Source: a virus
IMG/VR virus record: IMGVR_UViG_3300048836_001241
Location: 1-28,764 of that record
Reading direction: 5' to 3' (one strand)
Length of the DNA stretch: 28,764 nucleotides
Each line of letters begins with the position of its first letter. Within the stretch, counting starts at the first letter, position 1. The notes beneath the pieces were generated by a model that was not told the origin of the DNA, ran no database searches, and saw only the letters and a program-made list of their open reading frames with translations. Shown piece after piece: positions 1,173 to 22,544 of this stretch. The position numbers and the translations under genes were made by a program.

Positions 1173-3890
1173 TTACCCCAGCAAGTTGATGTTGAAGAAA
1201 GTTTCGCCGTTGTCTCCGACCAGATCGGCGCTGTCGGTGCCAAGGCCGTCGACCCGGACGCGAAGCTCCGCGCGCTCGCCCGCCTCCAGGAAGAAGAACG
1301 CCGAGACCTGCCCGCGCCAGATGCCGGCAGTGTTGATCGCGCCGTTCGGGACCAGGTTTGCCACGGCCCGGTTGATCTGCGTGGTGGCAGGGGCCGCCGC
1401 GTAATGGACGATGCTCAGCTGAGCCAGGGTGACAGAGGCCCCCATGCCGTCCATGCGCACGCTTCCGGTGAAGGCGTAGACCCCAGAGGATGGTGCGGTG
1501 AAGACGCCTGCGCTGACGGTTCCATCGGTGTCGTAGAGGTCGCCCCCGTTGGCGAAGGGGATCACATACTCGGTCGCGTTCCCGGTCACGTTGTTCTGGT
1601 TCGGGCGCCGGCCGGCAAAGCGGGTGGCGGCGTTCATGTTGAGGGTAAGCGGCGATCGGGTCTGCACCTTGTCGACCGGGGCCATGTTGCCGGCGATGAT
1701 ATGGGGCAGTTCCGGCCCGGGCTCTGGGCGCTCGATGCGGATTGCGGTGGGGGAACTCTGGATCAGGTTCGACTGGATCAGCATCCGGCCCGACACTGTG
1801 CCGAACTCGGCTTGCCCGCCGCTAGTGTAGGCGGAAAAGCTGGAGGTGTTGAACCCGGTCAGATCCTTGCGGTTGGGGTTGGCATAAAGGGTCACCACGC
1901 CCGTCGCGACATTGTACTCGGTGTAGGCGATCAGGCCGTTGATCTGGGTCATGCCGCCCACGCCCGAGAAAGTGAGCGCTTCGCGGTTGAAGTTCGGGTT
2001 GCCTGTGCGGGTGAAGGGATGCGACAGCCGCGACGTGCCGACAGCCGCCCAGCTTCCGTTGCCGACAACAGGCTTTTCCAGATAGGCGTCCTCTTCCCAA
2101 AGGGCGAGGGTGTTGGCGTCAATCACCTCGACCTTGACCGGCTTCGGAAAGCCCCCGGCCGCCGTGAAAAAGCCGATGGCCGGGGTGCCGGTGATGGTGC
2201 GACGGTTGCCGCTGACCTGGCCATGGCTCGGGACAGTGATCCTGACCGGCGTCACCGTGCCGTTGATGGCAGTGATCGTGAGTTGCGGGAAGGTGATGGT
2301 GGGGATTGCCGCGCGGGTGATGTTGCTGATCGGCATGGTCGTGTAGTAGGCGCGGTGCTGGATGCCCCGGTCGCCATTGTCGCGCAGGACGTTGCCAAGG
2401 ATGCCCGAGAACAGGCTCTCGGTGTCGCCCTTGTTCCCGACGACAATGCCGCCGTTGTTCCCGTCATACCCATGGTTCAATGCCCACATGACACCGAGCA
2501 GCTTGTTGCCGCCGAAGTTCCCGACGCCGCCGCTTTCGGCGACATAGTTTCCGGCAATCAGGGTATCGGTGCCCTCGTCGCACTGGATGCCTTCGCCGCC
2601 GGATCTCAGAACCGAGTTGCCAAAGCAGAGCGCGGCCGTGCTCTTGCCGGTTGAGATCCCGCCGCCGTCCACGTCCCACAGGTCGCAGAAGAGCGTCCGG
2701 CTGCGGAAACCCTTGACCGCCAGGCCGCCGCTTCTGAACGTCTGGCAGTTCATGATCAGGCTGTAGTCGGACCCCAGCGAGATTGCCGCCTGGGTCAGGC
2801 CGTTGATCCCGTCCCAACCGCCGTCGATCTTGATGTTTGACACCGTGATGAACTCGGGCGTCGGCACGATCGGTCCGGCCGCGATGTCGAATTCGTCCGG
2901 CGACTGGAAGATGACCCCGCTGTTGGCCCGGGTAATGTAGCCCATGCCGTCGGCCGTGTGCGTCGTGCCGGGGGCAAGGATGTCGTCCAGCCCGCCGTTG
3001 ATGGTCCAGTTGCCGTCCCATTTGGCGGTCGGGCGGACCGAGGCGTTCATCCTGGCGATCATCGCGTTGGCGGCGGTCTTGTTCTGCGCTGCAGTGCGGC
3101 CTGATCCGTCCATGCCCACGCCGAACTGGGCGGGGTAGAAGATCGTGCGCTGCAGCTGCGCGACAAAGCCGCCCAGAAGGGTGTGGTCGCCGAATTCGTC
3201 AGGCGTCGCGCCGAACTCGGCCAGCGTGCGGACGCGGTAGGTTGCAGCTCCGCCGTCGCCCGGCGCGAAATAGCCGTTGGTCTGGATGATCTTGCCGCTG
3301 GCCAGGAACTGGACGGGCAGGGCCTTCATGTCGGCGACGGTCTGGCTGTCGTTCAGCGTCCCGGCAAAGGAGGCGGCGATGGCGGCCGATGCTGCGGCGG
3401 CAAGGGCGCTGGCCTGGGCGCTGGAGATCTCGGTCACCGTCGGGCCGCTGACCACGCGGCTTCCCTGGCGGACAGGCACGGTGTCATCATCCCAGATGAA
3501 GGGCGGCAGCTCGCCCCGGATGCGGATCGCGCCCTCGGTGACGGTGCGCACCTCCTGCACGGTCTGGACGGTACGGTCGAGCTGCGCCTCGAGGCCCTTT
3601 TCGCGCTCGCCCAGCACGCCAAGCCAACCCTGCTCGTCCGGGGTCACGCGGTCGATGAAGAGGGTGCGGCCGGCATGGGTGGCGGCGGCGGCGGGGGTCA
3701 GGAACAGGCTGCCGACGGTGTCGCTTTCGGTCGGGGTCAGGGTGAAATCGGACGGGTTGAGCTGCGTCTGCACATCGTCGATCACCACGAAGGCCCGGAT
3801 CGCGCCCAGGGCGTAGGGGTGGGTAATGCCATAGGGGCCGATGCCCGCCACGGTATATTCGGGTGTCACGACCCAGGCTTCGACAGTCAT
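1173..3890 (-). CDS. Tailspike: T7 gp17-like anchor, beta-helix, C-terminal jelly-roll
   Basis: This 905-residue receptor-binding protein starts with a T7 gp17-type virion anchor (about residues 1-115, with NPSDFTLTPTES and the RVTPDEQGWLG segment). An Ala-rich helix follows near 155-178. The middle (about 190-560) is rich in short Gly/Asn/Ser beta turns (INGGLDDILAPGT, SNIKIDGGWDGING, GNKGDTESLF), typical of a right-handed pectate-lyase-like beta-helix that often cleaves surface polysaccharide. The end (about 770-905) has the pattern SGVYAFTGSVRM ... ERAELRVRVDG of C1q/TNF-like trimeric beta-sandwiches. A strong ribosome binding site GGAGG (3897-3901) lies 6 nt before the ATG, which overlaps the upstream stop as ATGA. 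Enzymatic residues could not be assigned by eye. Confidence 0.85.
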   Translation of the reverse strand: MTVEAWVVTPEYTVAGIGPYGITHPYALGAIRAFVVIDDVQTQLNPSDFTLTPTESDTVGSLFLTPAAAATHAGRTLFIDRVTPDEQGWLGVLGEREKGLEAQLDRTVQTVQEVRTVTEGAIRIRGELPPFIWDDDTVPVRQGSRVVSGPTVTEISSAQASALAAAASAAIAASFAGTLNDSQTVADMKALPVQFLASGKIIQTNGYFAPGDGGAATYRVRTLAEFGATPDEFGDHTLLGGFVAQLQRTIFYPAQFGVGMDGSGRTAAQNKTAANAMIARMNASVRPTAKWDGNWTINGGLDDILAPGTTHTADGMGYITRANSGVIFQSPDEFDIAAGPIVPTPEFITVSNIKIDGGWDGINGLTQAAISLGSDYSLIMNCQTFRSGGLAVKGFRSRTLFCDLWDVDGGGISTGKSTAALCFGNSVLRSGGEGIQCDEGTDTLIAGNYVAESGGVGNFGGNKLLGVMWALNHGYDGNNGGIVVGNKGDTESLFSGILGNVLRDNGDRGIQHRAYYTTMPISNITRAAIPTITFPQLTITAINGTVTPVRITVPSHGQVSGNRRTITGTPAIGFFTAAGGFPKPVKVEVIDANTLALWEEDAYLEKPVVGNGSWAAVGTSRLSHPFTRTGNPNFNREALTFSGVGGMTQINGLIAYTEYNVATGVVTLYANPNRKDLTGFNTSSFSAYTSGGQAEFGTVSGRMLIQSNLIQSSPTAIRIERPEPGPELPHIIAGNMAPVDKVQTRSPLTLNMNAATRFAGRRPNQNNVTGNATEYVIPFANGGDLYDTDGTVSAGVFTAPSSGVYAFTGSVRMDGMGASVTLAQLSIVHYAAAPATTQINRAVANLVPNGAINTAGIWRGQVSAFFFLEAGERAELRVRVDGLGTDSADLVGDNGETFFNINLLG

Positions 3891-6433
3891 TGATCACCTC
3901 CAAGGGATCCGAGGGCATTGGAAAGATCGGGCAGGCGGGCGTCGCCGCCGGTGCCGCGTACGGGGATGAAGGGCTGGGTGCCGTAGTCCTTGGCCATCTT
4001 CTTGACCTTGCGGCGGAAGATCAGCTCGGCCTCGGGATCGAGGAAGGCCTGCAGGTTGTCAGCGACCAGGCGGCTGTAGGCGGTGCGAACGTACCAGGCG
4101 GACGAAAAGAACGGGGTGTTGCTGCGCACAAGGCCCGCGAGGTCGCGGCCGATCAGCGTGTCCTCGCCGTTCACCGCGCGGGTGATGTTGCTGGCGATGG
4201 GGCCGATGATGTCACCGGCAAGGCCGGCGACCGGGCCGGCCAGCGTCTCGCCGATGCCACCGCCCACGCGACTGGTTTCGGACTGGAAGAAATCCCCGAA
4301 GATGCCCAGGCCGCCGCCCTGGAAGAGGGCCGCCATCCAGAACTTGCCGGTGTCCATCGGGCGGGGATCGTTGCCCTTGACCAGCTCTTTCAGCTGGATC
4401 GCAAGGGCGCCGGTTACCAGAAGCATGCCACTGACCTTGGCGGCATAGCTCCAGCGGTTCATGCCCCAGCTGTCGGCCTCGGCAAAGCGGCGGTACTGGT
4501 TCAGCATCAGCGACAGGCTGAAGGACTTGTAGGCGGTCGAGCTGCGGGCAAGCTCGCCCAGGAAGGTGCCGGGGGCAGACGTGCCCTGCAACATGGCCTT
4601 GCCCTCAAGGCTGGCGCTGGGGATGGCCATTTCCAGCTGCTCCTGGATCGCCATCTGCCAGCGCATGGCCAGCCCCTCGGCCTCGACCCGTGGCATGGCG
4701 GTCTGGGTTTCCAGCCAGTAATGCGGGGTCATGAAGTCCGGGCCGTCCAGCGCGGGGCCGCCGTTGCCGCCCGGCGCGCTTTGCGCCTTGGGGTAGAAGC
4801 GGGTGGCGGGATCCCGCATCAGGTCCCAGTCGGCGGCGGTGATGCCGCGCCGTTCCAGCATCAGCCGCGTGCGCGGGTCGATCTCGGCAAAGCCCTTGCC
4901 GGCCATGTCGGCCAGGTGACCCGCGAATTCCATCTGGAAGGCGATCTTGCGCATGTCGGTGACAAAGCTCAGCCCGGTGGCGCGCAGGGTGAAGCTGGCC
5001 AGGCGATCGGGCAGGCCGGTGCCGAAGGTCTTCCCGAAATAGCGCGCCATGGTGCTGCCGCTGTCGGCCAGCGTCTCGGCGACATAGCCCATGCGGGCGG
5101 CGGTTTCGCGGGTGGCCTGGGATGCCATCAGCTGCACCGACCGGCTCATCACGTTCGTGCCCGACAGGCCGATGGTGGTTGCGGCGGCGCTGATCGTGGC
5201 GGCGTCGGTGACCGAGGACACGACCGCGCTGCCCAGCTGGATGCCGACAAGGGTCGACCGGACGCCGCCGAAGAACCGCGCCCAGCCGACGTGATGGGGG
5301 ATGTTGGCGCTGCCGTTCTGGTGGGCCAGCATGGCCATGGCGGTCTTGCCGGCGCGGGTCACCCGCTCGGCCAGCTTGCCGTCACCGCGCTCGGCCGCCA
5401 GCTTCTCGGCCACCTGCGTGGCGTATTGCAGCCCGGTGCGCGGGTTGGGCCCAAGGACCCGCATCAGCGCCACGTCGCCGGCCAGGCCGTGCAGCCCGCC
5501 GATCATGGCGCTGAAGGGGTCAGACGTGCCGAACTCGCGGTTGTAGTCGATCCAGGACGATCCGTCCTTGAAGTGCAGGACGCGGTGTTCGGCCCGCTGG
5601 TTGGCAAGCGCGCGCCCGCCCATCGACAGGCTGGGGTCACGGTCATCCCAGCCGCGCGTGATGATCCCGTCATAGACGTCCTGCAGGAAGGTCTGCACGT
5701 CGGCCCGGGCCGGGATGCTGCCCTTGGCGGCAAAGGGCTTGCCGGTCGCGTTGTCGATGATCCGGTCCCAGGCCAGAAGCGGGGTGATCTTCTCGGCCCA
5801 GGCGTCAAAGCCCTTCAGCCGCAGCTGGCCCGCGTCGTGGCTATGGCTCACGCCGAAGTCAGCCAGGTCGCCAATGTCGCCGCCGTAGCTGTTGAAGGCC
5901 CGGCGCATGCGCTGCTGCTGGGTGCGGATCGTGGCGGCCAGGGTCTTGGCCAGGGCGTCGCCGGTCGCCTCGTCATGCAGCTCGCGGATCAGGTTTTCCA
6001 GAAGGCGCGCGTTGCGGGAATTCGACAGGACGTTGGTGCCGGTCTCCTTCAGCACCTGCTCGATCGCGCCGTTGATCGTGCTGACATAGGCCTCGGTCAG
6101 GGACCGGACGCTCTCGGCCCTCGATCCGGCATTGGGGTTGTATTCCAGAAGGCCCTTGATCGCGGCGGCGGGATCTTTGGCGGTCAGGATCGTCTGCCGC
6201 AGCCGCGCCATGGCCTGCAGCTGGTTCAGCACCACATGGCGGCGGCGGGCGGTCTTCGCCTTGTTGGCCTCCTTCAGGTCGGCGGCGGCGCGGGCGCGGG
6301 CCTGGGCCAGTGGCATGGCCGTGCGGTAGCGGGCGACCAGCTGGTCGAACTCGGCAATCATCGCGATGCCCCGGGCGCGGTCCAGCTCGCCAAAGTCGAT
6401 CGCGCGCTGCAGGCAGTCGGCCATGTTGGTCAC
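3887..6433 (-). CDS. Large internal virion/polyvalent protein with LPD38-like C-terminus
   Basis: This 848-residue, mainly helical protein has an Ala/Arg-rich helical N-terminus (ARARAAADLKEANKAKTARR) and no enzymatic motif that I recognise. The last ~80 residues (from about 771: SNTPFFSSAWYVRTAYSRLV, then NLQAFLDP and RRKVKKM) match the pattern I know from the C-terminal LPD38 domain of large phage 'polyvalent' proteins (NTP..N-LWYTRAA..., ...P-GYLRRME-R-KK). Two amphipathic or hydrophobic stretches near 660-735 could be membrane-active. It follows the 1416-aa polyvalent gene with TGAGTG spacing, so the two may act together as injected core proteins. The start is GTG at 6433: GGAGG (6441-6445) is 7 nt upstream of the GTG but 16 nt from the in-frame ATG at 6424. 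Confidence 0.75.
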   Translation of the reverse strand: MTNMADCLQRAIDFGELDRARGIAMIAEFDQLVARYRTAMPLAQARARAAADLKEANKAKTARRRHVVLNQLQAMARLRQTILTAKDPAAAIKGLLEYNPNAGSRAESVRSLTEAYVSTINGAIEQVLKETGTNVLSNSRNARLLENLIRELHDEATGDALAKTLAATIRTQQQRMRRAFNSYGGDIGDLADFGVSHSHDAGQLRLKGFDAWAEKITPLLAWDRIIDNATGKPFAAKGSIPARADVQTFLQDVYDGIITRGWDDRDPSLSMGGRALANQRAEHRVLHFKDGSSWIDYNREFGTSDPFSAMIGGLHGLAGDVALMRVLGPNPRTGLQYATQVAEKLAAERGDGKLAERVTRAGKTAMAMLAHQNGSANIPHHVGWARFFGGVRSTLVGIQLGSAVVSSVTDAATISAAATTIGLSGTNVMSRSVQLMASQATRETAARMGYVAETLADSGSTMARYFGKTFGTGLPDRLASFTLRATGLSFVTDMRKIAFQMEFAGHLADMAGKGFAEIDPRTRLMLERRGITAADWDLMRDPATRFYPKAQSAPGGNGGPALDGPDFMTPHYWLETQTAMPRVEAEGLAMRWQMAIQEQLEMAIPSASLEGKAMLQGTSAPGTFLGELARSSTAYKSFSLSLMLNQYRRFAEADSWGMNRWSYAAKVSGMLLVTGALAIQLKELVKGNDPRPMDTGKFWMAALFQGGGLGIFGDFFQSETSRVGGGIGETLAGPVAGLAGDIIGPIASNITRAVNGEDTLIGRDLAGLVRSNTPFFSSAWYVRTAYSRLVADNLQAFLDPEAELIFRRKVKKMAKDYGTQPFIPVRGTGGDARLPDLSNALGSLGGDQ

Positions 6434-9400
6434 TCAAGCACCTCCATTGGGGGCGACGGCACAGGCCTGCGCCACGGCGTCGGCCGTGCGGTCAGCGTCG
6501 ATGTCGTCCAGGATGTCGCCGGCGCGCACGCGGGTGCCGTCGGGCAGGTCGATGTCCAGCGCCGCAAACTCGCCCAGGTCGCTGCGCGCCCGGTCGATGG
6601 CAAGGGCGGCGGTGTCGATGGGGGCCAGCGCTTCGTCAGCGGGGCGAGAAAGGGGCATGTCGGGGTTGGCGGCGGGAATGGTGCCCGGCGGGGTGTCAGA
6701 GGTGCCTTGGCGGCCCGCTCCTGAAGTGGGCGGTTTGCTGTTGAAATCGTCGACCCGACGCGCCATATTCAGGACGTCCTCTGCGGGGCGGATAGCCTTC
6801 GGCGAGGTGCCGGCATCGGCAACTGCGGCCGCGTCTACCCATTTGACCGCAGAGGATCCTTCCAGGAATTCGACGGCTTCGATCGTGTAAAGCGGGTTTG
6901 CCCGACCTTCGCGCGCATCCTGCTTGACGGTCATCTTGACCAGCGCAGGGCGTCCGTCCGGTGACTTCATCGGCACGAAATAGCGGTGCACGGCTGCGAT
7001 GTTGGGGTTCCCTGCCCGGTCCGGCTTGGACCAGCCCAACCGCGAGGCGGCAAAGAGCGTGTCGATGTTTGCAATGGCGCGGGTGTGCAGCTCCGGAGAC
7101 GTCGACTTGGCGACTGCAGACTGGCTCAACATCTTGTCCAGCGCGTTGCGTGAAACGGTGGCCTCGATCCCCGTTGCCTCGTTGCGAAGCGCTCGGCCCT
7201 GAAACTCCTTTACCGCCTCCCGTGCCTCGGCGAAGGTGCCTGCTTGCCGCGACACGGTGGGTTCGCCCAGCGACGGCCCCCGCAGCTCTGCCTCGATCTC
7301 GGCATGCACCGCCTCGGCCGCCGGGCTCTGTGCGCCCTGGTCGAAGTCGTCGCCCTGCCGGTCGGCCACGGCCTCGACCGGGGCTTCCTGGCCGGGGCGG
7401 GCGAAGGTGCGGGCGGTGCCGAAGTCTTCGGGCAGGTCCTTGAAGATCTCGGGGTCGATCGTGCGCAGGATGTCACGCGGACCGGGGGCGTCGAACATCC
7501 CGTCGCCGTCGGTCGGGACCTTGCGCGCCTCGTCGGCATAGCGCTTCAGGAAGCTGACGATCTTGTCGGTGGGGGTCGACCGGCCGTCGCGCCAGAAAAC
7601 CTTGACCAGGCGGACGGTCAGGGGCGAGATGGCACCTTCAAGCATGTCGGGGCTGTTGATGATGTCGCTGATGGCCTGGCCGATCCCGCCCTTGCCTTTG
7701 GCGGCCATTTCGCGCGCGTCGTCGATCAGGCGCACGGCGTCCTGGACGAAAAGGCTGATGTCCATTTCGGGCGGGACAAGCCCGGCCTCGATGTCGGACT
7801 TCAGGGCGGCCCAGTTGGGGGCGGCCTTGGCCAGCGCCTGGATCAGCGGGATCAGGTCGTCCTCGGTGATCTCGGTGTACTTGGCCAGGATGTCCGGGGC
7901 ATCCCAGGCGCGCGCGAACATCAGCTCTTGCAGGGCGCGCTCGCCGGATCCGTTCAGCTGGCCGCCCTTGCCGAAGAAGGCATTGCGCTCGCTGCGCGAC
8001 AGGGTGGCCATGGCGGCGCGGGCGAAGTCGGCATTGTCCGGGTGCGACAGGCGAAGGCCGGGCTTCAGACGGGCCAGCGTGGTGGAGGTCAGGCCGCCCC
8101 GATAGGCCAGCGCCATTTCGGTGGCGTTCATCCGGGCGATGCCGCTGTCCTGGGCGTCGACGACAAAGCCCTTGCGGGCGGTTTCGTCAAACTCGGTCTT
8201 GCGGCGGGCGATCAGGACCGGGCGTTCCATGCCTGCAGGCACCTCGAAACCGGCGGCCTCGATGGCACCGCGATACGCCTGGGCGCGGTCGGGGTGCAGC
8301 TCATAGGCGCGACCGATGGCCATGGTGCGGCCGTTGCCGCTTTCGATCATGTTGTCGGGCCCGACGATCGGCGTCCCGGTGGCGGCATTGGGCGAGGGCA
8401 TGAGCTGCGCCGGGTCCAGCCGGGCAGCGGTGGCGGCGACCCATTCGTCGCTGTTGATCCGGCTGCGGTCGCGTGGCTGGTAGTCGCCGCTGGCGCGGAT
8501 CAGCGACCGGTAGTCGACGACCTCGTAGTCGACGTCGATCCGCTTGTCGTCGCCATAGGCGATCTGGTTCTGCCCGGTGTAACCGCGCGAGGTGGGGCCC
8601 ATGGCGGGGGCCGGGCCGTCCGTACTGCCGGGGGTCCAGTCGCCGCGGGGGCCCTTGTAGCCCTGCCAAGCGCCGGTGCCCTGGCGGATGAAGATCTGCT
8701 GGGCCAGATACTCCTGGAACTCGGGCGTCATCACCTCGTCGCCCCGAAGGTTCAGGTCACGCTTCAGCATGGCCAGGGTGTCGCCGACGATCTGGTAGCC
8801 GCCCATGGGCGTGGAGACGCCGTTCTCCTTGTCGGGACGGTTGGCGGCGACCCATTGGCCGTAGGGGCCTTCAGGGCGCTGGAACTCCAGCCACTGGTCG
8901 ACCGTCATCTTGCTCGGCTTGATGTTGCTCCACTTGCCGCCGGGGCGGTTGGAGAAGCCGAAGAGCGCGTCGAAGTCGCCGCCGCTTTCGGTTGCAAGGA
9001 TCCCGCGCCGGACGGGATCGGTCCAGCCTGCAGGGGCGTCGGGGCCGATCTCGGGCAGGGTGACCGTCACGCCGGACCGCGCGGCCGGCGCGTATGTGGC
9101 ACCGGCCCGGCCGGCCTCGATGGCCTTGGCGAAATAGGGGTCAAGCGTTTTCGACGTGGTGTCCGGCCCCCAGCTGGAGACGCTGCCGCCGCCGACGTGC
9201 ACGCCCCAGGAATAGTGGCCGATGCCGGGATAGACCTTGGCAGCCTCATACAGGAAGCGGGCGTAAAGCTCCGGGTCCTCGGTCGGGGTGACGGGTCTGC
9301 CGTTGCGGGTCAGGACAACGTCGCCGGTGTGAGCGACGCCGTTCGCGTCGACGTCGTGGCGGGTGGACCCGATCGGGCGGTTGCTGCCCGGGATGCGGCC

Positions 9401-10684
9401 CGTGCGGTCCTGCCCACCCGAGACGATCATGACGCCGATGTCATCGCCCAGGGGGGCGACGGCCCCGCGCAAGTCGGCCTTGAAACTGTCACTGACGGGC
9501 AGGTTGCGGGTCTTGGACTGGTAGGCCTCGACGACCTTGACCGTGTCGGGGGACCGGGTCTTGCCCAGGATGTCGCCCATGGTGCCGGGGGCAGGCTGGG
9601 CCTCGGCGCGCGCGCCGCCTTCGACCCTGCCGCCCAGCCGTTCCTGCGGGGTCTGGTCGCCGCGCAGCGCGGCTTCGGCGGCCTCGACCCCGGCCTCGTG
9701 GTCGATCCGGTCAACGCCCGGGGGGATGGTCTCGACCAGGCTGGCGCGGCGGGCTTCGGCCCGGGCCTGCAGGGCACGGGCGCCTTTGCCCAGGCCGATG
9801 ATCGCGGCGGAGAAGCCGCCGCCGAAAAGCGCACCCAGGGCAATGCGGCTTCCTGCGCTTGGGTCGGGCAGGTCCAGCTCTTCGGCGACGCGGTATTCCT
9901 TGGGCAGGACGGCCGCTTCGCCAGCCGCGCCCAGGACGGCCTCACCAACGATTGTGCGCCAAGCAGATCCGCTGATCCCCAAGGGCAGAAGCATCAGGCT
10001 GGTTTCGTCAGTGATGGCCCGCGCGGCGGATCCGAAGAATTCGGCCACTCCTCCGCCGGGCTGATCAAGGACTGCCTGCGCCTCGTCCAGATCAGCGCGG
10101 CGGCCCTCGTCGACCTGGCGGTTGAAGTCCTCGATCGACAGGGGCAGGCCCGCCCAGACGCGCGCCACGTCGGGCGACGCGGCCGCCTGGCGACCGGCCT
10201 CGGCGGTGATCAGCTCTTCCATGCTGGCCCAGCCTCGGCGGATGCGGTCCTGCCAGACACGGTCGCGGCCGCCCTGGTCGAGGCGGTTCCACATCTCTTC
10301 GACCAGCGACTGGCGGCGGCTGGTGGTGTCGTTCCAGGCGTCGGTCTTGATCGTTTCCGCACGCCAAGCCGCACCGATCACGTCCCAGGTTCCTGCATCA
10401 AAGGACGGCGGGGGTTGCACCTCGATCTGCGACGGGGGCAGGCCAAGCTCTGCGTCGATCTCGGCGCGCGTCTTGGGCGGGGGTCCGGCCGGAACTGCGG
10501 GGGGCGGTGCTGCCGGCTGGGCTGCGGCCGGGTCGGGCGGCGGGACGGCGACGGGGGCAGTCGGCGCGCCGGGCGGCGGGGCAATGCCGGGGCTGAACGG
10601 GTCGGTGTAGAAGCCGGCTGGCCCCATGTCCGCCTTGGTGCGGTTGCGCTGATCCTGTTTCAGCTGATCCTGAAGCTCGGTCAT
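6434..10684 (-). CDS. Polyvalent virion protein: M15-like peptidase + lysozyme-like + DdrB/ParB-like + LPD/RelE-like domains
   Basis: This 1416-residue protein has several domains in order. A Pro/Ala-rich disordered start covers 30-70 and helices cover 95-345. An M15-like peptidase region follows at about 370-525, with STRHD (His443), GDVV (Asp455) and VHVGGG (His496) as likely zinc ligands. A lysozyme/transglycosylase-like region spans about 555-680, with ATESGG (Glu566 as the catalytic candidate) and STPMGGYQIV (624-633). A DdrB-like ParB superfamily domain spans about 715-865 (QPRDRSR at 736-742, IVGPDNMIESGNGR at 773-786). A helical region follows. Near 1170-1275 (VSRNALDKML, VHRYFVPM, LVKMTVKQDA) there is a domain resembling the LPD3/PBECR RelE-like folds of polyvalent proteins. 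Such proteins are packaged and enter the cell with the DNA. Position among the core proteins supports this. Domain names are by motif recognition, not search. Confidence 0.8.
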   Translation of the reverse strand: MTELQDQLKQDQRNRTKADMGPAGFYTDPFSPGIAPPPGAPTAPVAVPPPDPAAAQPAAPPPAVPAGPPPKTRAEIDAELGLPPSQIEVQPPPSFDAGTWDVIGAAWRAETIKTDAWNDTTSRRQSLVEEMWNRLDQGGRDRVWQDRIRRGWASMEELITAEAGRQAAASPDVARVWAGLPLSIEDFNRQVDEGRRADLDEAQAVLDQPGGGVAEFFGSAARAITDETSLMLLPLGISGSAWRTIVGEAVLGAAGEAAVLPKEYRVAEELDLPDPSAGSRIALGALFGGGFSAAIIGLGKGARALQARAEARRASLVETIPPGVDRIDHEAGVEAAEAALRGDQTPQERLGGRVEGGARAEAQPAPGTMGDILGKTRSPDTVKVVEAYQSKTRNLPVSDSFKADLRGAVAPLGDDIGVMIVSGGQDRTGRIPGSNRPIGSTRHDVDANGVAHTGDVVLTRNGRPVTPTEDPELYARFLYEAAKVYPGIGHYSWGVHVGGGSVSSWGPDTTSKTLDPYFAKAIEAGRAGATYAPAARSGVTVTLPEIGPDAPAGWTDPVRRGILATESGGDFDALFGFSNRPGGKWSNIKPSKMTVDQWLEFQRPEGPYGQWVAANRPDKENGVSTPMGGYQIVGDTLAMLKRDLNLRGDEVMTPEFQEYLAQQIFIRQGTGAWQGYKGPRGDWTPGSTDGPAPAMGPTSRGYTGQNQIAYGDDKRIDVDYEVVDYRSLIRASGDYQPRDRSRINSDEWVAATAARLDPAQLMPSPNAATGTPIVGPDNMIESGNGRTMAIGRAYELHPDRAQAYRGAIEAAGFEVPAGMERPVLIARRKTEFDETARKGFVVDAQDSGIARMNATEMALAYRGGLTSTTLARLKPGLRLSHPDNADFARAAMATLSRSERNAFFGKGGQLNGSGERALQELMFARAWDAPDILAKYTEITEDDLIPLIQALAKAAPNWAALKSDIEAGLVPPEMDISLFVQDAVRLIDDAREMAAKGKGGIGQAISDIINSPDMLEGAISPLTVRLVKVFWRDGRSTPTDKIVSFLKRYADEARKVPTDGDGMFDAPGPRDILRTIDPEIFKDLPEDFGTARTFARPGQEAPVEAVADRQGDDFDQGAQSPAAEAVHAEIEAELRGPSLGEPTVSRQAGTFAEAREAVKEFQGRALRNEATGIEATVSRNALDKMLSQSAVAKSTSPELHTRAIANIDTLFAASRLGWSKPDRAGNPNIAAVHRYFVPMKSPDGRPALVKMTVKQDAREGRANPLYTIEAVEFLEGSSAVKWVDAAAVADAGTSPKAIRPAEDVLNMARRVDDFNSKPPTSGAGRQGTSDTPPGTIPAANPDMPLSRPADEALAPIDTAALAIDRARSDLGEFAALDIDLPDGTRVRAGDILDDIDADRTADAVAQACAVAPNGGA

Positions 10685-12855
10685 TGGCGGGCCCCGCGCA
10701 TCAGGTCCTTCAGGCGGAAGCGATAGGCCCCGCCGCCGCCGGCCTCGGGCACAGCGTAGGTGCGGCCGTTCTGTTCATAGACCAGTTCGTAGACGTCGGT
10801 TTCGCCCACGCGGCGGGGGGTCAGCATGTCCCACATCTGCGTGGGGTTGGAACCAAGGTCAGGGACGCCGCCATACACGCTGGCGGCCTTGAACGGGGCA
10901 AGGCGCGCGGTGGCGGTGGGGGCGGATTTTAGGGCGGCGTCAGGTGCCTGAAACCCTTCCGGTGCAGCATAGACCCACTCGCCCTGGCCACGGCTCGTAT
11001 CCCAGACACCCCCGGCCAGGCGGTTGCCGATCGCGTCCCACTCGCTTTCGACCTGCGCGACCGAGACACCGACGGGCAGCACGGTCAGGCCGCCATTGAT
11101 CTCCTGCAGGCCGCCAACGGTCAGGCCGCCGTTTCGGTCCGGCTGCGCGCCAAGCAGGCGCTGCACCGACTGCTGATAAAGTTCATAGGCCGCGCCGTCG
11201 GCAATCCAGCCGTCGCTTCCAGTGGTCTCGCCGTCGATGCCGGCCGCGCTGTCGGCGTACAACGCCAGGGCGGCTTCCATGATCTCGGCCTTGACGGCGG
11301 GGGCATCGTCGAAGGCTCCGCCCGTCATGGCGTCGAAGGCGAGGATCTGCTCCTTCCGGCTGGGCGGGACGATGGTCTTGCCGTCCAGCTTCTGCTGGCC
11401 GCGCAGGATGCTTTCCGTCAGGGCGGGATCCTGCGTCATGCCCAGAACCTTCAGCGCACGGCGGCTGACCGGGTCAGCTTCAAGGGCGGTCAGGACCTCG
11501 CCCGCGTTGCCGCCTGTTGCGCTCTGGATGGCTGCCAATAGCGCGACTTTGGGTCCGGCCTCCGCGCCGGGGGCGAGGACGGCCTGCAGCTCCGCCTTCT
11601 GCGCTTTGGTGAAGATCGCGCTCTGGTCGCTATAGCCCTTCTGGCGCTGGAAGGCGTCGAAGCTTAGGCTTTCCTGCAGGGCGGCGGCAAAGGCCTCGGG
11701 GTTGGCGGGGTCGAAGGCCGGGATCTCGGGCGCGGGCAGGCCGGATGCTGCAAGCGCAGCCTTGGGGTCGGTGGCAAGCGCGGTGGCCTTCTTGTCGCGC
11801 ATCTCGATCAGGACGGGCAGACGCTCGTTTTCCCAGGGCTCGACGATGGTGCGGTCCTTCTCGGCCGCGATCAGTGCGTCAATCTGGGCAGGGGTCATCA
11901 GGTCAAGGTTGGGGATCTCCTGCCCCAGCTTCACGCGCGCCAGGGCACGGGGGTACTTGGGGTTAGCCTTGACCTCATCGGGGGCGTTCAGGACAAAGTC
12001 GACGTCGGCGACCTTGCGGCCGGCGACGGTCAGCTCGCCGATCGTGTCGAGGCGGTTGCCGATTTCGTCCTGCCGCTTCTTGGCTTCCGCCTCGCCTGCC
12101 GTAGCCGCCGCCGCCGCGCGGCGGTCCAGCTCGGCCTGGGCGGTGGCGATGCGCTGCGCCTTGGCTTCCGGGCCGATGGCGTCATAGGTCCCGGCCTGCA
12201 GCGCCTCTTTGGCGGCGGCGGGATCCTGGTCGATGGCCGTGATCAGCCGGGCGTTCATCACCTCGGCCTCAAGCGCCTGCTTTTCGATAACAGCCTTGTC
12301 GGGCAGGATCAGGCCGGCGGCGACCTGTGCGTCGATCCGGGCATAGCCTTCCTGCAGCAAGGTCTCCATCGTCACCGGGTCGGCGGTGGCGGCGGTGGTG
12401 GTCAGGTCGGCACGGGTTTCAAGCCAATCGGCGGTCTGCTGGCTTTGGTGCAGGGCGATGTTGCGCTCGCCCAGGGCCAGCGCCTGACGCTGGCCAAGGT
12501 CCATCGCATGCAGGCCCAGGGCGTCAGCCTCGTCGGGCCGCCACATCGGGCGACCGTTGGCGTCCTTCTGGTTGATGTACTGGTCGCGGATCCGCGCCTC
12601 GACCTGCGGCCATTCGGCGTCGATCGCGGCTGGGTCGCCCAGCTGGGACACGCGCTGGTATTCCTGCCCCAGCGCCTTGGTCATCTCGATCTTGGCGCGG
12701 CTCATGCGGACGGCGCGCTGTTCCTGGTCGATCTGCCCCATCTTCTGGGCGACGGCGGCCCCGGCCTGCGAAATGAAGCCGCCGATGTCGGGCGTCTCGA
12801 CGCGGATGTCGGCGGACCGGCCGGCGACGATGCCCCCTTCAGGAACCGTGATCAT
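10681..12855 (-). CDS. Internal virion (core) protein, 724 aa, helical
   Basis: This 724-residue protein is largely alpha-helical, rich in Ala, Gln and Glu (QAGAAVAQKMGQIDQEQRA; a strongly charged coiled-coil stretch near 225-255 with AEAKKRQDEIGNRL) and has no signal peptide or TM segment. The size and its place directly between a gp14-like protein and the giant polyvalent protein match the T7 gp15-type ejection protein, part of the channel that carries phage DNA across the envelope. I see no sequence motif that proves homology to gp15. Both ends overlap neighbours by ATGA (12852-12855 and 10681-10684), so expression should be tightly coupled. AAAGG lies about 9 nt before the ATG. The alternative is an unrelated structural protein with the same position. 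Confidence 0.75.
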   Translation of the reverse strand: MITVPEGGIVAGRSADIRVETPDIGGFISQAGAAVAQKMGQIDQEQRAVRMSRAKIEMTKALGQEYQRVSQLGDPAAIDAEWPQVEARIRDQYINQKDANGRPMWRPDEADALGLHAMDLGQRQALALGERNIALHQSQQTADWLETRADLTTTAATADPVTMETLLQEGYARIDAQVAAGLILPDKAVIEKQALEAEVMNARLITAIDQDPAAAKEALQAGTYDAIGPEAKAQRIATAQAELDRRAAAAATAGEAEAKKRQDEIGNRLDTIGELTVAGRKVADVDFVLNAPDEVKANPKYPRALARVKLGQEIPNLDLMTPAQIDALIAAEKDRTIVEPWENERLPVLIEMRDKKATALATDPKAALAASGLPAPEIPAFDPANPEAFAAALQESLSFDAFQRQKGYSDQSAIFTKAQKAELQAVLAPGAEAGPKVALLAAIQSATGGNAGEVLTALEADPVSRRALKVLGMTQDPALTESILRGQQKLDGKTIVPPSRKEQILAFDAMTGGAFDDAPAVKAEIMEAALALYADSAAGIDGETTGSDGWIADGAAYELYQQSVQRLLGAQPDRNGGLTVGGLQEINGGLTVLPVGVSVAQVESEWDAIGNRLAGGVWDTSRGQGEWVYAAPEGFQAPDAALKSAPTATARLAPFKAASVYGGVPDLGSNPTQMWDMLTPRRVGETDVYELVYEQNGRTYAVPEAGGGGAYRFRLKDLMRGARQ

Positions 12856-13406
12856 GCCAGCTGCCTTTCCCGAAAGAGGCCGGGCCAGACCTCCGGGCCC
12901 ATGGTCAGGAAGTCGCTGGCCGCGCCGATCGTGCCCTTCAGAAGGCCGGCGCTGGCGCTGGCGCTGGCGATGGCGGCCTGACTGGTCAGCTCGGCATTGC
13001 GCGCCTGGCCGGTGGACCGGATGGCCTGGCTGTCAAAGCTCAGCTCCTGTGCGGCGGTCTGGCCCAGGTAGACGGCGGTCGGGCTGGAAAGATCGACGCC
13101 GCGCGCCAGAAGCTCGGCCCCCTGCTGGCGGATCATGCCTTCCATCTTGCCGCGCTGGCGCTGGTCCTGCGTGGCGGTCAGCTGCGCCTCTGTCTTGGCC
13201 TGGTCGCGCAGGGCGGCTTCCTGCGCCTTGCCCTGCCCGTAGGCCTGCACGCCGGAATAAAGGCTGCCCGCGATGGTGGCGACGGTGGCAAGGGTCTGCA
13301 GCGCCCCGACCGCGCCGGCGCCGGCTGCTGCTGCACCGGCACCCGCGGCTGCTGCACCGCCGCCAAGCAATCCCGGCACCAGGGCTCCCAATCCAATGAC
13401 ACACAT
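12852..13406 (-). CDS. Internal virion protein, T7 gp14-like
   Basis: This 184-residue protein begins with a Gly/Ala-rich hydrophobic stretch (about residues 3-50). An amphipathic Gln/Ala helix follows (GQGKAQEAALRDQAKTEAQL), then the segment GAELLARGVDLSSPTAVYLG near 103-122 and a second Ala/Ser-rich hydrophobic stretch (AIASASASAGLLKGTIGAA). This layout, including the 'ARGVDxSSPTAVYLG' segment, is typical of the virion core protein T7 gp14 family, an ejected protein that inserts into the outer membrane during DNA entry. It sits right after the tail nozzle gene (TGATG one-base overlap) and before the 724-aa core protein (ATGA overlap). Confidence 0.8.
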   Translation of the reverse strand: MCVIGLGALVPGLLGGGAAAAGAGAAAAGAGAVGALQTLATVATIAGSLYSGVQAYGQGKAQEAALRDQAKTEAQLTATQDQRQRGKMEGMIRQQGAELLARGVDLSSPTAVYLGQTAAQELSFDSQAIRSTGQARNAELTSQAAIASASASAGLLKGTIGAASDFLTMGPEVWPGLFRERQLA

Positions 13407-15631
13407 CAGCGTCCAGCCTCCTGCACGATCGGGGTGACGGCGGTCACGGTCATCGGAGCGCCGCCAAAGGGGTAGAAGCGGATGGCCAGCTCGGTCGCGT
13501 GGCCGCTGGGTTCGGGGATCTGCAGGACGCCGGAATAGGCGTCCTCGCCCAGGGTGGCCGCCACCGGCTGCGGGACCATCAGGCGCTTGTCGCCAAGGCG
13601 CGGGGCCTGGGCGAAGTCGCGCTCCACGATCTGGATGTAGCCCTGCGCCGTGTTGTGCAGCCCGACGCCGAACTGGGCATGCAGCCGTTTCTTGCGGCCA
13701 AGGGTGTTGCCGTCGGCGGCCGACGCCTGCACGTCCAGCGTCTCGACATAGTGGGTGTCGTCGAAAAGGCCGATATAGGCGCGGGTGGCCTGGACCGGCA
13801 GGGTGATCGCGCCGCCCGGCGGGACGTCGATCGGGCCGAAGGCACCGACGTCGGTCCAGACGTAGACGGTTTCGCCGGCCAGGTGCGGCACGGAAAAGCT
13901 GTTGCTTCCGGGCTCTTGCGCAAAGCGGCCGGCAGCGAAGAAATGGCAGGCGTCCTTGATCGGCGTGGTCCCGGTCAAGAGGCCGAAGATCGGGGTCATC
14001 GTCTCGACGAAGCGCCTGGTCACCCCGTTGATCGTGCGGCGCACGATCATCATGACCTCGTCGCTGGTGCCGGTTGCATTGGGCGTGACGGCCAAGGCCT
14101 CGCAGAAGCCGCCGGCAAGGGGAACGGTGGCCCAGCCCAGGACTTCTTCGGACTGGTCGAATATCATGACAGCCAGGTCACCGGTGGCGCGGCGGATCCA
14201 TGCCATCGGCTCGGGCGTCGCCTGCCAGACGATCTGCTCGAACTGTTCGGCCCCGAGATGCTGGCTGGCGCGGCTCAGGGTGATCGGGCGGTTGGCGTCG
14301 GCCTCGAAGCTGTAGCTGATCATCACGACGCGGCGGCGGTCGCGGCTGATGAACATCGGGTTGCCCCCGGGCGCGATCGGGCGCGAGGTGTGGCTGCCGA
14401 AGGACGAGTTGTAGGTGAAGGTCGCGGTGGTGGGCCCGATCACCTGGGCGCGGTTGTCGGCACGGGTGGAGTATTCCTCGCCCAGGGCGAAGATGTGCAG
14501 GCCCGTCGCACCCCGGCGGAGGTTCAGGATCCGGTTGACCGTGTTGTCGCCCGCAATGGCATAGGCAAAGCTGCTGTCTGCCTCGACGCCCGGCGCGAAG
14601 TCACCGAAGTCGCCTGCCGTGGAAAACCAGATGGTGCGCGGCTCGGTCGGGGTGGCGGCAAGGCAAAGGCGCTGATCGAAGATCTCGATGGCCGACGGAT
14701 AGCCGTAGCGGTCCGACCAGGCCCCCTCTGACCAGCGGTAGGTCGGATCGTTTACGACCGCCTCGGGCAGGCGCTTCAGGACCTGGGCGGTGGCGGATGT
14801 GCCGCTGGCGACGGCGGTGATCCGCACGACGCCGGTGTCGTCGCTGATGAAGGTCCAGCGGGTGGGCTTGTTGTCGACCAGTTCCTGACCGACATCATGG
14901 ATCGGCGGGTTGGTCCCGGCATTGGTCCCGGCCGCCAGCTGATAGACGTTGCGGCCATAGCGGCGGCGGTCCCCGACGCTCAGCGCCTCGTTGGACGTCC
15001 AAAGGGCGACGGCGGTGTTGTCGGTGGGCTTCAGCTCCATCAGGCTGCCGACATGGCTGGCCGTGAACAGGCTGCCCCCGGCGGCCGTCAGGGTAACGGT
15101 GCCGATCTCGGCGCTGGCCTGCACGGTCCTGGCCTTGTTCAGGTTCTGCACCCGGAAGGGGCCGGTGTTGGGGTCGAAGTCGGCGATTGTCCAGTTGTCC
15201 AGCGCAAAGCGGGACAGGACCTGAATGGGACGAAGCCCGTCCGCCAGGTAGATCACGTCGGCAGACTGCACCCACTGCAGCTGGCCAAGGGACGCTGTGG
15301 GGTAAGGCGTGACAAGCTCGTAGGGCGCGTCCGCCCCGTCAAGGACCGGCTGGCCATAGCGCCAGACGCGCATCCGAAGGTTGGTGAACTCCAGCACCAC
15401 GGCGTCGTTCACCGCAAAGGTGAAGGGCAGAAGGATGCCTTGGGCGTTGCTGCGGGTCGATCCCAGGTGAAACGTGCCCGGCGCGCGGGTGAAGCCGCCC
15501 TGGGCCAGGGGCAGGAAGCCGCGGCACGCGGCAAGTCCGGTCTGGAAGCGCTGGTAGTCGAAACGGCGGTGCAGAAGCGGGTCGATCTCGCCGGACCCGA
15601 AGCTTACCTGCGGTGGGCTGGTTCGGGTCAT
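13406..15631 (-). CDS. Tail nozzle / tail tubular protein B (T7 gp12-like)
   Basis: This 741-residue, beta-rich protein starts MTRTSPPQVSFGSGEIDP. The N-terminus 'F.sGEisP.l..R.D...y..gl..c.NF.p...Gg..rRpGt' is the recognised opening of podovirus tail nozzle proteins: compare GEIDPLLHRRFDYQRF, CRGFLPLAQGGFTRAPG, RMRVWRYGQPV and IFDQRLCLAATP. It should form the hexameric tip of the short tail through which DNA leaves. Its length is close to that of T7 gp12 (~790). The ATG at 15631 lies in an ATGA overlap with the adaptor gene. The frame is open to 15967, but that part is Arg/His/Pro-rich shadow over the adaptor gene and is not included. Confidence 0.9.
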   Translation of the reverse strand: MTRTSPPQVSFGSGEIDPLLHRRFDYQRFQTGLAACRGFLPLAQGGFTRAPGTFHLGSTRSNAQGILLPFTFAVNDAVVLEFTNLRMRVWRYGQPVLDGADAPYELVTPYPTASLGQLQWVQSADVIYLADGLRPIQVLSRFALDNWTIADFDPNTGPFRVQNLNKARTVQASAEIGTVTLTAAGGSLFTASHVGSLMELKPTDNTAVALWTSNEALSVGDRRRYGRNVYQLAAGTNAGTNPPIHDVGQELVDNKPTRWTFISDDTGVVRITAVASGTSATAQVLKRLPEAVVNDPTYRWSEGAWSDRYGYPSAIEIFDQRLCLAATPTEPRTIWFSTAGDFGDFAPGVEADSSFAYAIAGDNTVNRILNLRRGATGLHIFALGEEYSTRADNRAQVIGPTTATFTYNSSFGSHTSRPIAPGGNPMFISRDRRRVVMISYSFEADANRPITLSRASQHLGAEQFEQIVWQATPEPMAWIRRATGDLAVMIFDQSEEVLGWATVPLAGGFCEALAVTPNATGTSDEVMMIVRRTINGVTRRFVETMTPIFGLLTGTTPIKDACHFFAAGRFAQEPGSNSFSVPHLAGETVYVWTDVGAFGPIDVPPGGAITLPVQATRAYIGLFDDTHYVETLDVQASAADGNTLGRKKRLHAQFGVGLHNTAQGYIQIVERDFAQAPRLGDKRLMVPQPVAATLGEDAYSGVLQIPEPSGHATELAIRFYPFGGAPMTVTAVTPIVQEAGR

Positions 15632-16326
15632 CGCATGGCCTCCAGTGCCCAGTCGCCTTCGCTGCCGTAGGTCAGGCCGCCGCCTTGCGCTTCGGACCAG
15701 GTGGCTCGGCTGGCCTGCAGGCCGTCTTCGCGCATCGCCTGCTTCAGGGTGGCAAGCGCGGCGTCCTCGATTCCCTGCGGATCGAAGCCCGACCCGGCAA
15801 AGCGGCCGCCAAGACGCAGGGCGATATGCAGGGCAAGGGCGGTGCGGAAGGTGGCGGGCAGCACCTCCTCGCGCGTGACGCGGGCGGTGTAGCGCAGGGT
15901 GACCGCGGCCGGGGCATCGTGGCGCATGATCTGCCCGTCGATCCGCCAGCGCGCGGTGTCGGGCCAAAGCTGACGAGGCCGGATCAGGGTGTCGGGCAGA
16001 AGCACGCAGACCGTCAGCCGATCATCCGACGCGACGCCTGGTGGCAGGGGCGATGGCTGCAGGATGATGACGGTGGACGCAAAGCTCCAGTCGCAGGCGG
16101 CCAGAAGGTCGTCGATCGCAATGTCGAAGGCCTCGGTCAGCGCGGGCAGAAGCTCGGACCCCGGATCGTGCCGCGCGACGGGTGCCAGGCGCATGAAGCG
16201 CAGCGCCTGGCCGATGACCGGGGAGGTCGCCAGGACCACTGGCGGGGCCCAGTCATAGGGCGGCACAAGAAGGCCCGTGTCGAAGAGCGCGTCATCGAAG
16301 ATGGCTGGGTCAAAGAGGACGGTCAT
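15628..16326 (-). CDS. Tail adaptor A-like protein (T7 gp11/TtpA fold), copy 1
   Basis: This 232-residue protein has the TtpA-type pattern: an N-terminal helix ALRFMRLAP (41-49), DWSFAST (79-85) after a run of helices, and the C-terminal helical hairpin RYTARVTREEVLPATFRTAL (145-164) followed by RLGGRF. Such proteins form the dodecameric ring (gatekeeper/adaptor) between portal and nozzle. It has a ~30-residue N-terminal extension with the short repeat FDPAIFDDALFDT that the paralogue at 18624-19226 lacks. It overlaps the nozzle gene by ATGA and starts 2 nt after the tail fibre stop. It is clearly paralogous to the other adaptor; which of the two is the true gatekeeper cannot be told from sequence alone. 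Confidence 0.8.
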   Translation of the reverse strand: MTVLFDPAIFDDALFDTGLLVPPYDWAPPVVLATSPVIGQALRFMRLAPVARHDPGSELLPALTEAFDIAIDDLLAACDWSFASTVIILQPSPLPPGVASDDRLTVCVLLPDTLIRPRQLWPDTARWRIDGQIMRHDAPAAVTLRYTARVTREEVLPATFRTALALHIALRLGGRFAGSGFDPQGIEDAALATLKQAMREDGLQASRATWSEAQGGGLTYGSEGDWALEAMR

Positions 16327-19830: not shown

Positions 19831-20757
19831 TCAGGCGCACTCGATGGCGATGACGCCCTTGTCCTGCAGGCGCACCACATCGCGCCGGGTGCGCACCCGG
19901 ACGTAGGGCTTGTTGTCGGCGTGGGTGTCGTTCCAGACGTCGCCGTTGATCTCTTCCCAGACGCCTTCGACGATGTTGCGCTTGGTCCAGACCGGGCAGA
20001 CGTCGGCCGTGCCGGCGGTGTTCTTCGGCACGCGGTTCGACGTGATCCAGGTGATGCCCATCAGCATGCTGGGCTTGCCGTCCCGGATCTGCTCGATGTT
20101 GTAGGCGTTCAGGGGGGTGGTGGACGCCTGCGCGATGGCGAGAAGGTTGTCGCGCTGCTTTGGCGTGATCAGGCAGTAGAGGGGATCGTCTTCCTCCAGC
20201 CCAAAGTCGGCCTGCTGCAGCGTCAGGATGGCCAGGCGCATCTTGTCGATGGTCAGGCCGGTGCCGCCGGCCGGGATGATCTGGCTGCCCGGCAGGGCGA
20301 CGCCCGAAGTGCCGGGGCGCTTGCCCTCGATCGCGGTCCCGAGGATCCCGCCGTCGGTGACGGTATAGACCCCGTTGATCCGGCGGACGCCGACGATCCG
20401 GTCCATGCAGCCGCGCAGGACCGCGACAGTGTGGGCCTTGACGAAGTCCGACGTGGGATCCTTGATCATGTCGAGCTTGTCTTCTTCGTCGATGTACTGG
20501 CCGGTCTTGATCTCGGCCGGGCGGACAAGCCAGCGGCGGTAGCCGGTGACGTTGTTCTCGACGTTGCGGCGGGTGCGCTCTTCGCCGTACTGGTATTCCA
20601 GGGCGTTCAGGGCATCCATGGCCGACTGCGCCTCGCCCGTGGCCGGGATCGAGGTGACGGTCGACATGAGCGGGTTCTTCATCTGCTGTGCGACCATGAC
20701 GACGTTGTCACGGTAGGCAAGCTTGTGGTGCTGTTCCACTGCGGGTGCGATGGGCAT
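19831..20757 (-). CDS. Major capsid protein
   Basis: This 308-residue protein has the layout of the podovirus HK97-fold capsid family: an N-terminal helix (EQHHKLAYRDNVVMVAQQMK), the polar E-loop-like region (NVTGYRRWLVRPAEIKTGQ, then DEEDKLDMIKDPTSDFVKAH), the P-domain helix DKMRLAILTLQQADFG followed by PLYCLITPKQRDNLLA, and a C-terminal beta segment with VWTKRNIVEGVWEEINGDVW and VRTRRDVVRL. It lies directly after the scaffold and before the decoration candidate. It has the best ribosome binding site in the window, AAGGAGG (20764-20770), 6 nt before the ATG, as expected for the most abundant virion protein. Hairpins lie on both sides, suggesting separate mRNA control. Confidence 0.9.
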   Translation of the reverse strand: MPIAPAVEQHHKLAYRDNVVMVAQQMKNPLMSTVTSIPATGEAQSAMDALNALEYQYGEERTRRNVENNVTGYRRWLVRPAEIKTGQYIDEEDKLDMIKDPTSDFVKAHTVAVLRGCMDRIVGVRRINGVYTVTDGGILGTAIEGKRPGTSGVALPGSQIIPAGGTGLTIDKMRLAILTLQQADFGLEEDDPLYCLITPKQRDNLLAIAQASTTPLNAYNIEQIRDGKPSMLMGITWITSNRVPKNTAGTADVCPVWTKRNIVEGVWEEINGDVWNDTHADNKPYVRVRTRRDVVRLQDKGVIAIECA

Positions 20758-22329: not shown

Positions 22330-22544
22330 CGGCAGTCCTCCGCATGAACGCGGCGGCTGATCAGGTGCCCCTCGTGCCAGTATTCGACCAGGTAGAACGG
22401 AGCGGCCATGTGGCGGCAGTAGATGATTTCCTCGATCGTGGCGGGGATCCCATCGCCGATCGTGACGCGGTCCCCGAGTTTGTGGTCTGGACGACCGATC
22501 GTGACGCGGTCCCCGGGGTTGCGGGCAGGACGACCGATCATCAC
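22326..22544 (-). CDS. Small SH3-like protein with 13-residue N-terminal repeats
   Basis: This 72-residue protein begins with two 13-residue repeats (IGRPARNPGDRVT, IGRPDHKLGDRVT) and a third partial IGDG. A compact beta-rich end follows: IPATIEEIIYCRHMAAPFYL, then VEYWHEGHLISRRVHAEDCR. The GDRVTI...ATIEEI pattern resembles SH3/KOW-like small barrels. The product lies directly after the portal (GTGA overlap, GTG start at 22544; an ATG one codon later is an equal alternative) and before the Bbp19-like gene (TTGA overlap). A weak AGGGGG precedes it. Function unknown; a head-completion or structural accessory role is only suggested by the neighbours. Confidence 0.65.
   Translation of the reverse strand: MMIGRPARNPGDRVTIGRPDHKLGDRVTIGDGIPATIEEIIYCRHMAAPFYLVEYWHEGHLISRRVHAEDCR
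22456..22541. repeat. 39-bp in-frame tandem repeat
   Basis: The 21-bp core CCGATCGTGACGCGGTCCCCG occurs exactly at 22456-22476 and 22495-22515 and restarts partially at 22534, a period of 39 bp. The repeat stays in frame with the 72-aa gene, giving 13-residue protein repeats. It lies right at the gene start, so duplication has extended the N-terminus of the protein. Confidence 0.85.

Follow-up and report, generated by a model that had tools for sequence, protein, structure and literature searches.

The short-tailed phages epsilon15 and phiV10 encode two neighboring proteins, gp16 and gp17 in epsilon15 and gp19 and gp20 in phiV10. Their genes meet in a tight junction, and each protein carries a lone cysteine at the end that faces its partner. 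The relevant part of a review assigns this gene cluster to the ejection proteins, and those of epsilon15 are described there as making the core stack (PMC8954989). The question addressed here is how podophages draw enzymes and effectors through the narrow portal along with the channel proteins. We found a pair of this kind in the viral record IMGVR_UViG_3300048836_001241, positions 1 to 28,764; these 28,764 nucleotides, the whole stretch analyzed, are called the window below. On its minus strand, a gene for a multi-domain ("polyvalent") protein of 1416 amino acids (aa), referred to as the cargo protein (6434..10684, epsilon15 gp16 position), abuts the GTG-started gene of an 848-aa all-helical ejection (internal virion) protein (3887..6433). 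The two probably represent separate components of an ejection complex, similar to epsilon15 gp16 and gp17, which would work as one ejected unit coupled at the facing ends.

The window resembles epsilon15 and phiV10 in its gene order, in the tight junction, in the facing lone cysteines and in an 848-aa protein that is homologous over its full length. The difference lies in the first protein of the pair: epsilon15 gp16 has 634 aa and phiV10 gp19 has 600 aa, whereas the cargo protein of the window has 1416 aa with a ddrB-ParB domain, an LPD3 domain and a lysozyme-like stretch. The tetrameric ejection protein of PhiM1 and T7 gp16 (internal virion protein D) are, like the 848-aa protein, large, helical and last in the internal-protein cluster, and any fold similarity to it is modest. 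However, T7 gp16 is cysteine-free and bears its peptidoglycan enzyme on the same single chain, while in the window the enzyme and the channel protein are on separate genes. The giant polyvalent proteins that contain LPD38 are also phage-encoded and have a large, mostly helical C-terminal module. In contrast to the 848-aa protein, they are single chains of 2342-3555 aa without cysteine, and they have no profile-level homology to it. P1 DdrB and the ddrB-ParB/lysozyme polyvalent proteins of Acinetobacter have the ddrB-ParB domain in common with the cargo of the window; in the part of their paper that bears on this, Iyer et al. place ddrB-ParB-lysozyme fusions near late genes (PMC5512222). Unlike in P1 DdrB and the Acinetobacter proteins, ddrB-ParB in the window belongs to a set of interchangeable domains that occupy the gp16 slot, with a conserved cysteine tail at the end.

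A preliminary description of this DNA, made from its letters, had proposed a separate 848-codon open reading frame (ORF) joined through TGAGTG to a multi-enzyme gene, with a C-terminal motif NTPFFSSAWYVRTAY ... NLQAFLDP ... RRKVKKM. All of this turned out to be real: the ORF is present on the minus strand, the TGA and GTG codons abut at 6431..6436, the larger gene is multi-domain, and the motif is found in the 848-aa protein. Judging by the relatives, conservation of the motif is more than chance. The sequence GGAGGTG (6439..6445, minus strand), within the 3' end of the cargo gene, resembles a ribosome site for the 848-aa gene. In relatives the junction is mostly a 4-nucleotide overlap of the ATGA type; the 4-nucleotide overlap was seen in 74 of 145 loci.

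The 848-aa protein belongs over its full length to the family phrog_684 (38-838 of 840, E 6e-145). Using tblastn, we matched it to 111 phage records, 78 of them at a coverage of at least 80%. The named matches include phiV10 gp20, BcepC6B gp17 and VP5 gp18, and epsilon15 gp17 was reached via phiV10. The order tail – gp14-like – gp15-like – gp16-like – gp17-like in the window is the order of epsilon15, phiV10, BcepC6B and VP5. By sequence family, the 848-aa protein is an orthologue of epsilon15 gp17 and phiV10 gp20; it is of a type already known among the ejection proteins of short-tailed phages and not a fragment of a giant one. The suggestion in the preliminary description that the two proteins may be ejected together as subunits finds good support in the orthology with epsilon15 gp16-gp17, in synteny and in the paired terminal cysteines. 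The ejection protein itself was already known in kind; the new element is the paired-cysteine rule.

The 848-aa protein has a single cysteine, Cys7 (codon 6413..6415, minus strand), which is the only invariant residue among the first 150 in 16 diverse homologues. The cargo protein also has a single one, Cys1408 (codon 6461..6463, minus strand), located 8 residues from its end; this is the only invariant column among 38 aligned cargo proteins. Both genes are complete in 142 loci, which form 118 clusters at 90% identity and 36 at 50%, and it is in these that we counted cysteines. The cargo had a cysteine within its last 30 residues in 141 of the 142 loci, where composition predicts 4%, and in 131 it was the sole one. 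The distance of the cargo cysteine from the C-terminus was 1-14 residues. The exception (locus L141) has no cargo gene at the expected place. In the 848-type partner, as called, a cysteine was located within the first 20 residues in 138 of the 142 loci, compared with 2% expected by composition, and was the sole one in 134. The starts of homologues were called by a script. Four were miscalled, as checked by eye, and in these four partners the reading frame extends upstream to another start codon and includes the cysteine there, which brings the count to 142/142 after start correction. At 50% identity, 35 and 33 of the 36 clusters, respectively, had no apparent exception as called. The pair was also present in all 17 phage records examined singly (15 named, 2 unverified); in TPWB-05 the partner has a second cysteine. 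All loci were found through the 848-type protein. Therefore, the N-terminal cysteine of the partner reflects conservation of its family and is not independent evidence, and the terminal cysteine of the far more divergent cargo proteins is the stronger half.

We also scanned all ORFs of at least 300 aa for a single cysteine located within 15 residues of the end, ignoring the first 60 residues, where starts are uncertain. The upstream ORF was positive in 143 of 158 loci, compared with 1 of 469 other plus-strand ORFs and none of 572 minus-strand ORFs. The 15 misses comprise five with an extra cysteine beside the terminal one, two without a cargo gene, and eight (L013, L014, L044, L045, L057, L083, L084 and L105) in which the upstream gene was cut by the locus end or too little upstream sequence was available. 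In contrast to these pairs, none of nine large ejection proteins (T7 gp15 and gp16, P22 gp7, gp20 and gp16, and two large internal proteins each of SP6 and phiKMV) has a cysteine, and none was found in the 19 LPD38 giants examined.

It might be supposed that the cysteines are by-products of a constraint on the DNA at the junction, such as the overlap, the ribosome site or translational coupling, and the junctions are indeed tight in most loci. However, both cysteine codons are in use (TGC/TGT 103/40 and 86/55 at the two positions), and the cargo cysteine does not keep a fixed distance from the end. The supposition is refuted by loci with other ORFs between the two genes. We listed 13 non-adjacent loci, of which several perhaps have miscalled starts and one is degenerate, and relied on five (L006, L008, L107, L168 and L170), where the pair is retained across a gap of up to about 2.9 kb (L008; ZCVPP1). 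Since the pair is kept across separated genes and both codons are used, the constraint acts on the proteins, and a DNA-level origin is hardly credible. A split intein was rejected by reasoning: with the upstream cysteine so close to the end, there is no room for an intein half.

The cargo proteins vary much more than their partners. The coefficient of variation of length is 23.7% for the cargo versus 3.7% for the 848-aa family, and 49 of 81 cargo proteins have no blastp match to the cargo of the window. In the virus of locus L011 the 848-type protein is 90% identical to that of the window, and the cargo is alike only in patches (51%, 66% and 72%). The window segment 8615-9517 (cargo residues ~390-690) has no match in the L011 cargo; by eye, the window copy contains an M15-peptidase-like motif. 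The cargo of the window carries a ddrB-like ParB domain at residues 712-829 (8198..8551, minus strand; PF18763, E 5e-34) and an LPD3 domain at residues 1153-1261, in a variable C-terminal payload slot (6902..7228, minus strand; PF18798, E 4e-18). With these two effector/LPD domains on one polypeptide, it qualifies as a polyvalent protein, for which at least two are required. Residues 565-677 (8654..8992, minus strand) form a lysozyme-like stretch, 41-44% identical to the same stretch in roseophage proteins; its class is assigned from sequence, the window copy having no Pfam match. Among the 38 cargo proteins, Pfam families were ddrB-ParB (28), Phage_lysozyme2 (6), PBECR1 (6), Zeta toxin (3), GH108 (2), LPD3 (1) and PBECR3 (1). 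As far as domain matches tell, the epsilon15 gp16 slot is a mosaic carrier with swapped lysozyme, ddrB-ParB, LPD3, PBECR or zeta-toxin domains. The presence of the PBECR1 nuclease (six proteins) and zeta toxin (three) at the position of LPD3 in the window suggests that toxin-like effectors acting on bacteria may be injected. The end of the cargo is a conserved tail (DG...LDD.DAD...AC...; 6437..6559, minus strand), a candidate docking tag. In the first round, a hidden Markov model of this tail matched 82 of the 148 upstream proteins (E<0.01), and in 81 of these the match lay at the extreme C-terminus. The count of 121/148 from the iterated model was not used, as the profile drifted into the ddrB region.

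Lone cysteines kept at the facing ends while the inner domains swap point to a defined coupling site. We suppose that the capsid would hold both proteins and that they would be the first to be ejected. The 848-aa protein would help to form a channel across the envelope, and the 1416-aa protein would deliver the cell-wall lysozyme together with DNA-acting or toxin-like payload domains. The conserved cargo tail, which includes the cysteine, may dock at the N-terminus of the 848-aa protein near Cys7, and the docked pair would then move as one functional chain despite the free exchange of payloads. The coupling could involve a disulfide, which could form in the periplasm. By linking the cysteine at the C-terminus of the cargo to the one at the N-terminus of the ejection protein, such a bond would recreate one continuous chain, head to tail; this particular form of coupling is possible, though we would not presume it. 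Any payload with the tag at its end could then be threaded via the portal and the oxidizing periplasm. Ejection proteins made as a single chain, like the giant polyvalent proteins, are free of cysteine and would not need the bond. In the portions of the open-licence PMC literature consulted, we found no report of a disulfide or another cysteine link between ejection proteins of epsilon15-type phages, which is a weak negative. A terminal cysteine may also mark injected phage cargo proteins encoded by non-adjacent genes.

The fold of the 848-aa protein was predicted using AlphaFold2. The model is all-helical, with a predicted local distance difference test (pLDDT) of 80.8 and a predicted template modeling score of 0.81. 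Its best match among viral structures is a VP2 internal virion protein (E 6e-32, TM 0.76/0.82). In a second look at the PDB (883 chains), core or ejectosome chains of T7, E1004 and PhiM1 took ranks 1, 3 and 4, with Z of 6.7, 5.5 and 4.5. According to VIA-align, residues 85-596 of the model correspond to residues 525-1276 of the T7 chain, and the alignments with E1004 and PhiM1 are similar. Searches of Pfam and PHROG found no enzyme domain in the 848-aa protein, and a family-profile search of the sequences of solved structures returned only 7 unrelated chains (best E 0.099).

Several observations weigh against a coupled pair. Five cargo ORFs hold further cysteines besides the terminal one (some starts are perhaps over-extended), and two loci, L141 and L160, have an 848-type gene with the N-terminal cysteine and no recognizable cargo. 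Among the loci surveyed, none was found to have lost both cysteines together. The Z scores from the PDB are modest for a helical protein, and values <13 may be due to chance according to the tool's own note; Foldseek of the model against the PDB gave no match at E<=0.001. Each terminal cysteine could also serve something else, such as a homodimer, a metal or a third partner. If so, the two would be ordinary ejection proteins with no direct link, and their cysteines would act independently in homodimers, in a metal site of an oligomer, or in contact with a virion protein such as the gp14-like one. The gp14-like protein does begin with Met-Cys, the cysteine at residue 2 being its only one, not just in the window but also in epsilon15, phiV10, two Acinetobacter phages and T7 (loci L166, L002, L168, L170 and L225). 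However, this cysteine is absent in BcepC6B, VP5, SI2, APEC and Skadi-3, yet the pair of cargo and 848-type protein is present in all five; it is also absent in SP6 and phiKMV. The surroundings of the two cysteines of the pair showed no conserved second ligand, and in a single chain the two ends that bear them would adjoin each other. We consider independent roles rather unlikely and prefer the coupled pair. The lone 848-type genes of L141 and L160, which have no recognizable cassette upstream, are possibly prophage remnants.

One origin compatible with a coupled pair is that it is T7 gp16 in two pieces, with an enzyme-bearing N-terminal half and a channel-forming C-terminal half. The structural alignments of the 848-aa model with the T7, E1004 and PhiM1 chains point in this direction, as does the endolysin domain that T7 gp16 bears on the same chain. 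However, the alignment score is modest (Z 6.7 over 323 residues, 6.6 Å), no relation was found at the level of sequence, and an SLT annotation is also present on epsilon15 gp15. We mention this origin tentatively, as less probable than its opposite. The preliminary description offered another one: the 848-aa gene would be the LPD38 C-terminus broken off one ancestral giant polyvalent protein. The predicted fold gives this some ground, being like C-terminal fragments of several proteins labeled "Large polyvalent protein associated domain-containing" (A0A6J5LZT3_2: E 4.5e-9, TMq 0.53). Eight of the 50 viral structure matches listed bear this label, all eight being second or third fragments of longer proteins, which is presumably what the numeric suffix of these entries marks. 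A distant fold relation between the 848-aa protein and the terminal modules of some giants is therefore plausible at the level of models.

The resemblance to LPD38 itself failed both the profile test and the profile-profile test. A Pfam profile search with the 848-aa protein gave no family at E<=1, and the LPD38 profile (PF18857) stayed below its 27-bit cut-off in all 21 related records, the window included. The list of 25 Pfam families obtained with 40 relatives of the 848-aa protein does not contain LPD38, nor was LPD38 listed for ten named-phage relatives. For comparison we assembled a reference set of 34 loci from viral contigs and aligned 23 C-terminal modules of ~1000 aa each. The LPD38 profile matches 23/23 of these giants, and genuine LPD38 lies ~130-150 residues from the C-terminus of proteins of 2.3-3.6 thousand residues, with a sequence quite unlike the C-terminus of the 848-aa protein. 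In hhalign, the profile of the 40 relatives matched the LPD38 giants with a probability of 0.1-0.2% (0.2% against all 23), while for the ten named-phage relatives, distant as they are, the same profile gave 100% (E 6e-138). The model of the LPD38 module is of low confidence (pLDDT 65), and its top-50 viral matches, compared by eye, have none in common with those of the 848-aa model. In the PDB second look, this low-confidence model gave short helical matches, for the most part to the final 100 residues; ejection proteins were not among them. Both kinds of protein occur separately in one genome, that of Salipiger marinus (G016), where an LPD38 giant on a 4238-codon frame and an 850-codon 848-type relative are on different contigs (C28, C33); LPD38 was found in 4 of 385 genomes of its class.

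The relatives were surveyed in 163 loci, 157 of them complete, with three short, apparently degenerate homologues counted in (L151, 681 aa; L155, 471 aa; L158, 533 aa). The median length in the complete loci is 829 aa. The fused homologues that a divided giant would lead one to look for did not appear: the 848-type gene is separate in 157/157, and the longest stop-to-stop frame is 1267 codons. The long stop-to-stop frames in L028, L080, L101, L115 and L137 are open-frame read-through across the upstream gene, a separate upstream ORF being called there. A search of 754 genomes with a profile of the 848-type C-terminus gave hits in 3 of 369 and 12 of 385, only on frames of 259-1041 aa, and never in a fusion. 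The LPD38 origin of the 848-aa gene is refuted at the level of sequence, and we hold it to be improbable as a whole. More generally, the two genes may go back to one ancestral protein, though the direction of change may have been split or fusion.

The other genes of the cluster lie upstream on the minus strand. A 724-aa protein without cysteine (10681..12855), assigned as gp15-like by synteny, has no family match and occupies the epsilon15 gp15 position. It is preceded by a 184-aa gp14-like internal virion protein, whose sole cysteine is at residue 2 (12852..13406; phrog_418, E 3e-14). The next gene encodes a tail protein at the epsilon15 gp12 position (13406..15967), which matches phrog_376 (E 3e-152) from residue 113; its start is probably internal. 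Inspected by eye, positions ~40-110 of the window resemble the 3' portion of a tRNA gene, which might be an attachment site; ARAGORN reported no tRNA. Matches were also obtained to an endolysin (457-1173), a major head protein (19834-20757), a head-tail connector (22544-24229) and, weakly, a large terminase (26064-27971), which is consistent with a short-tailed phage.

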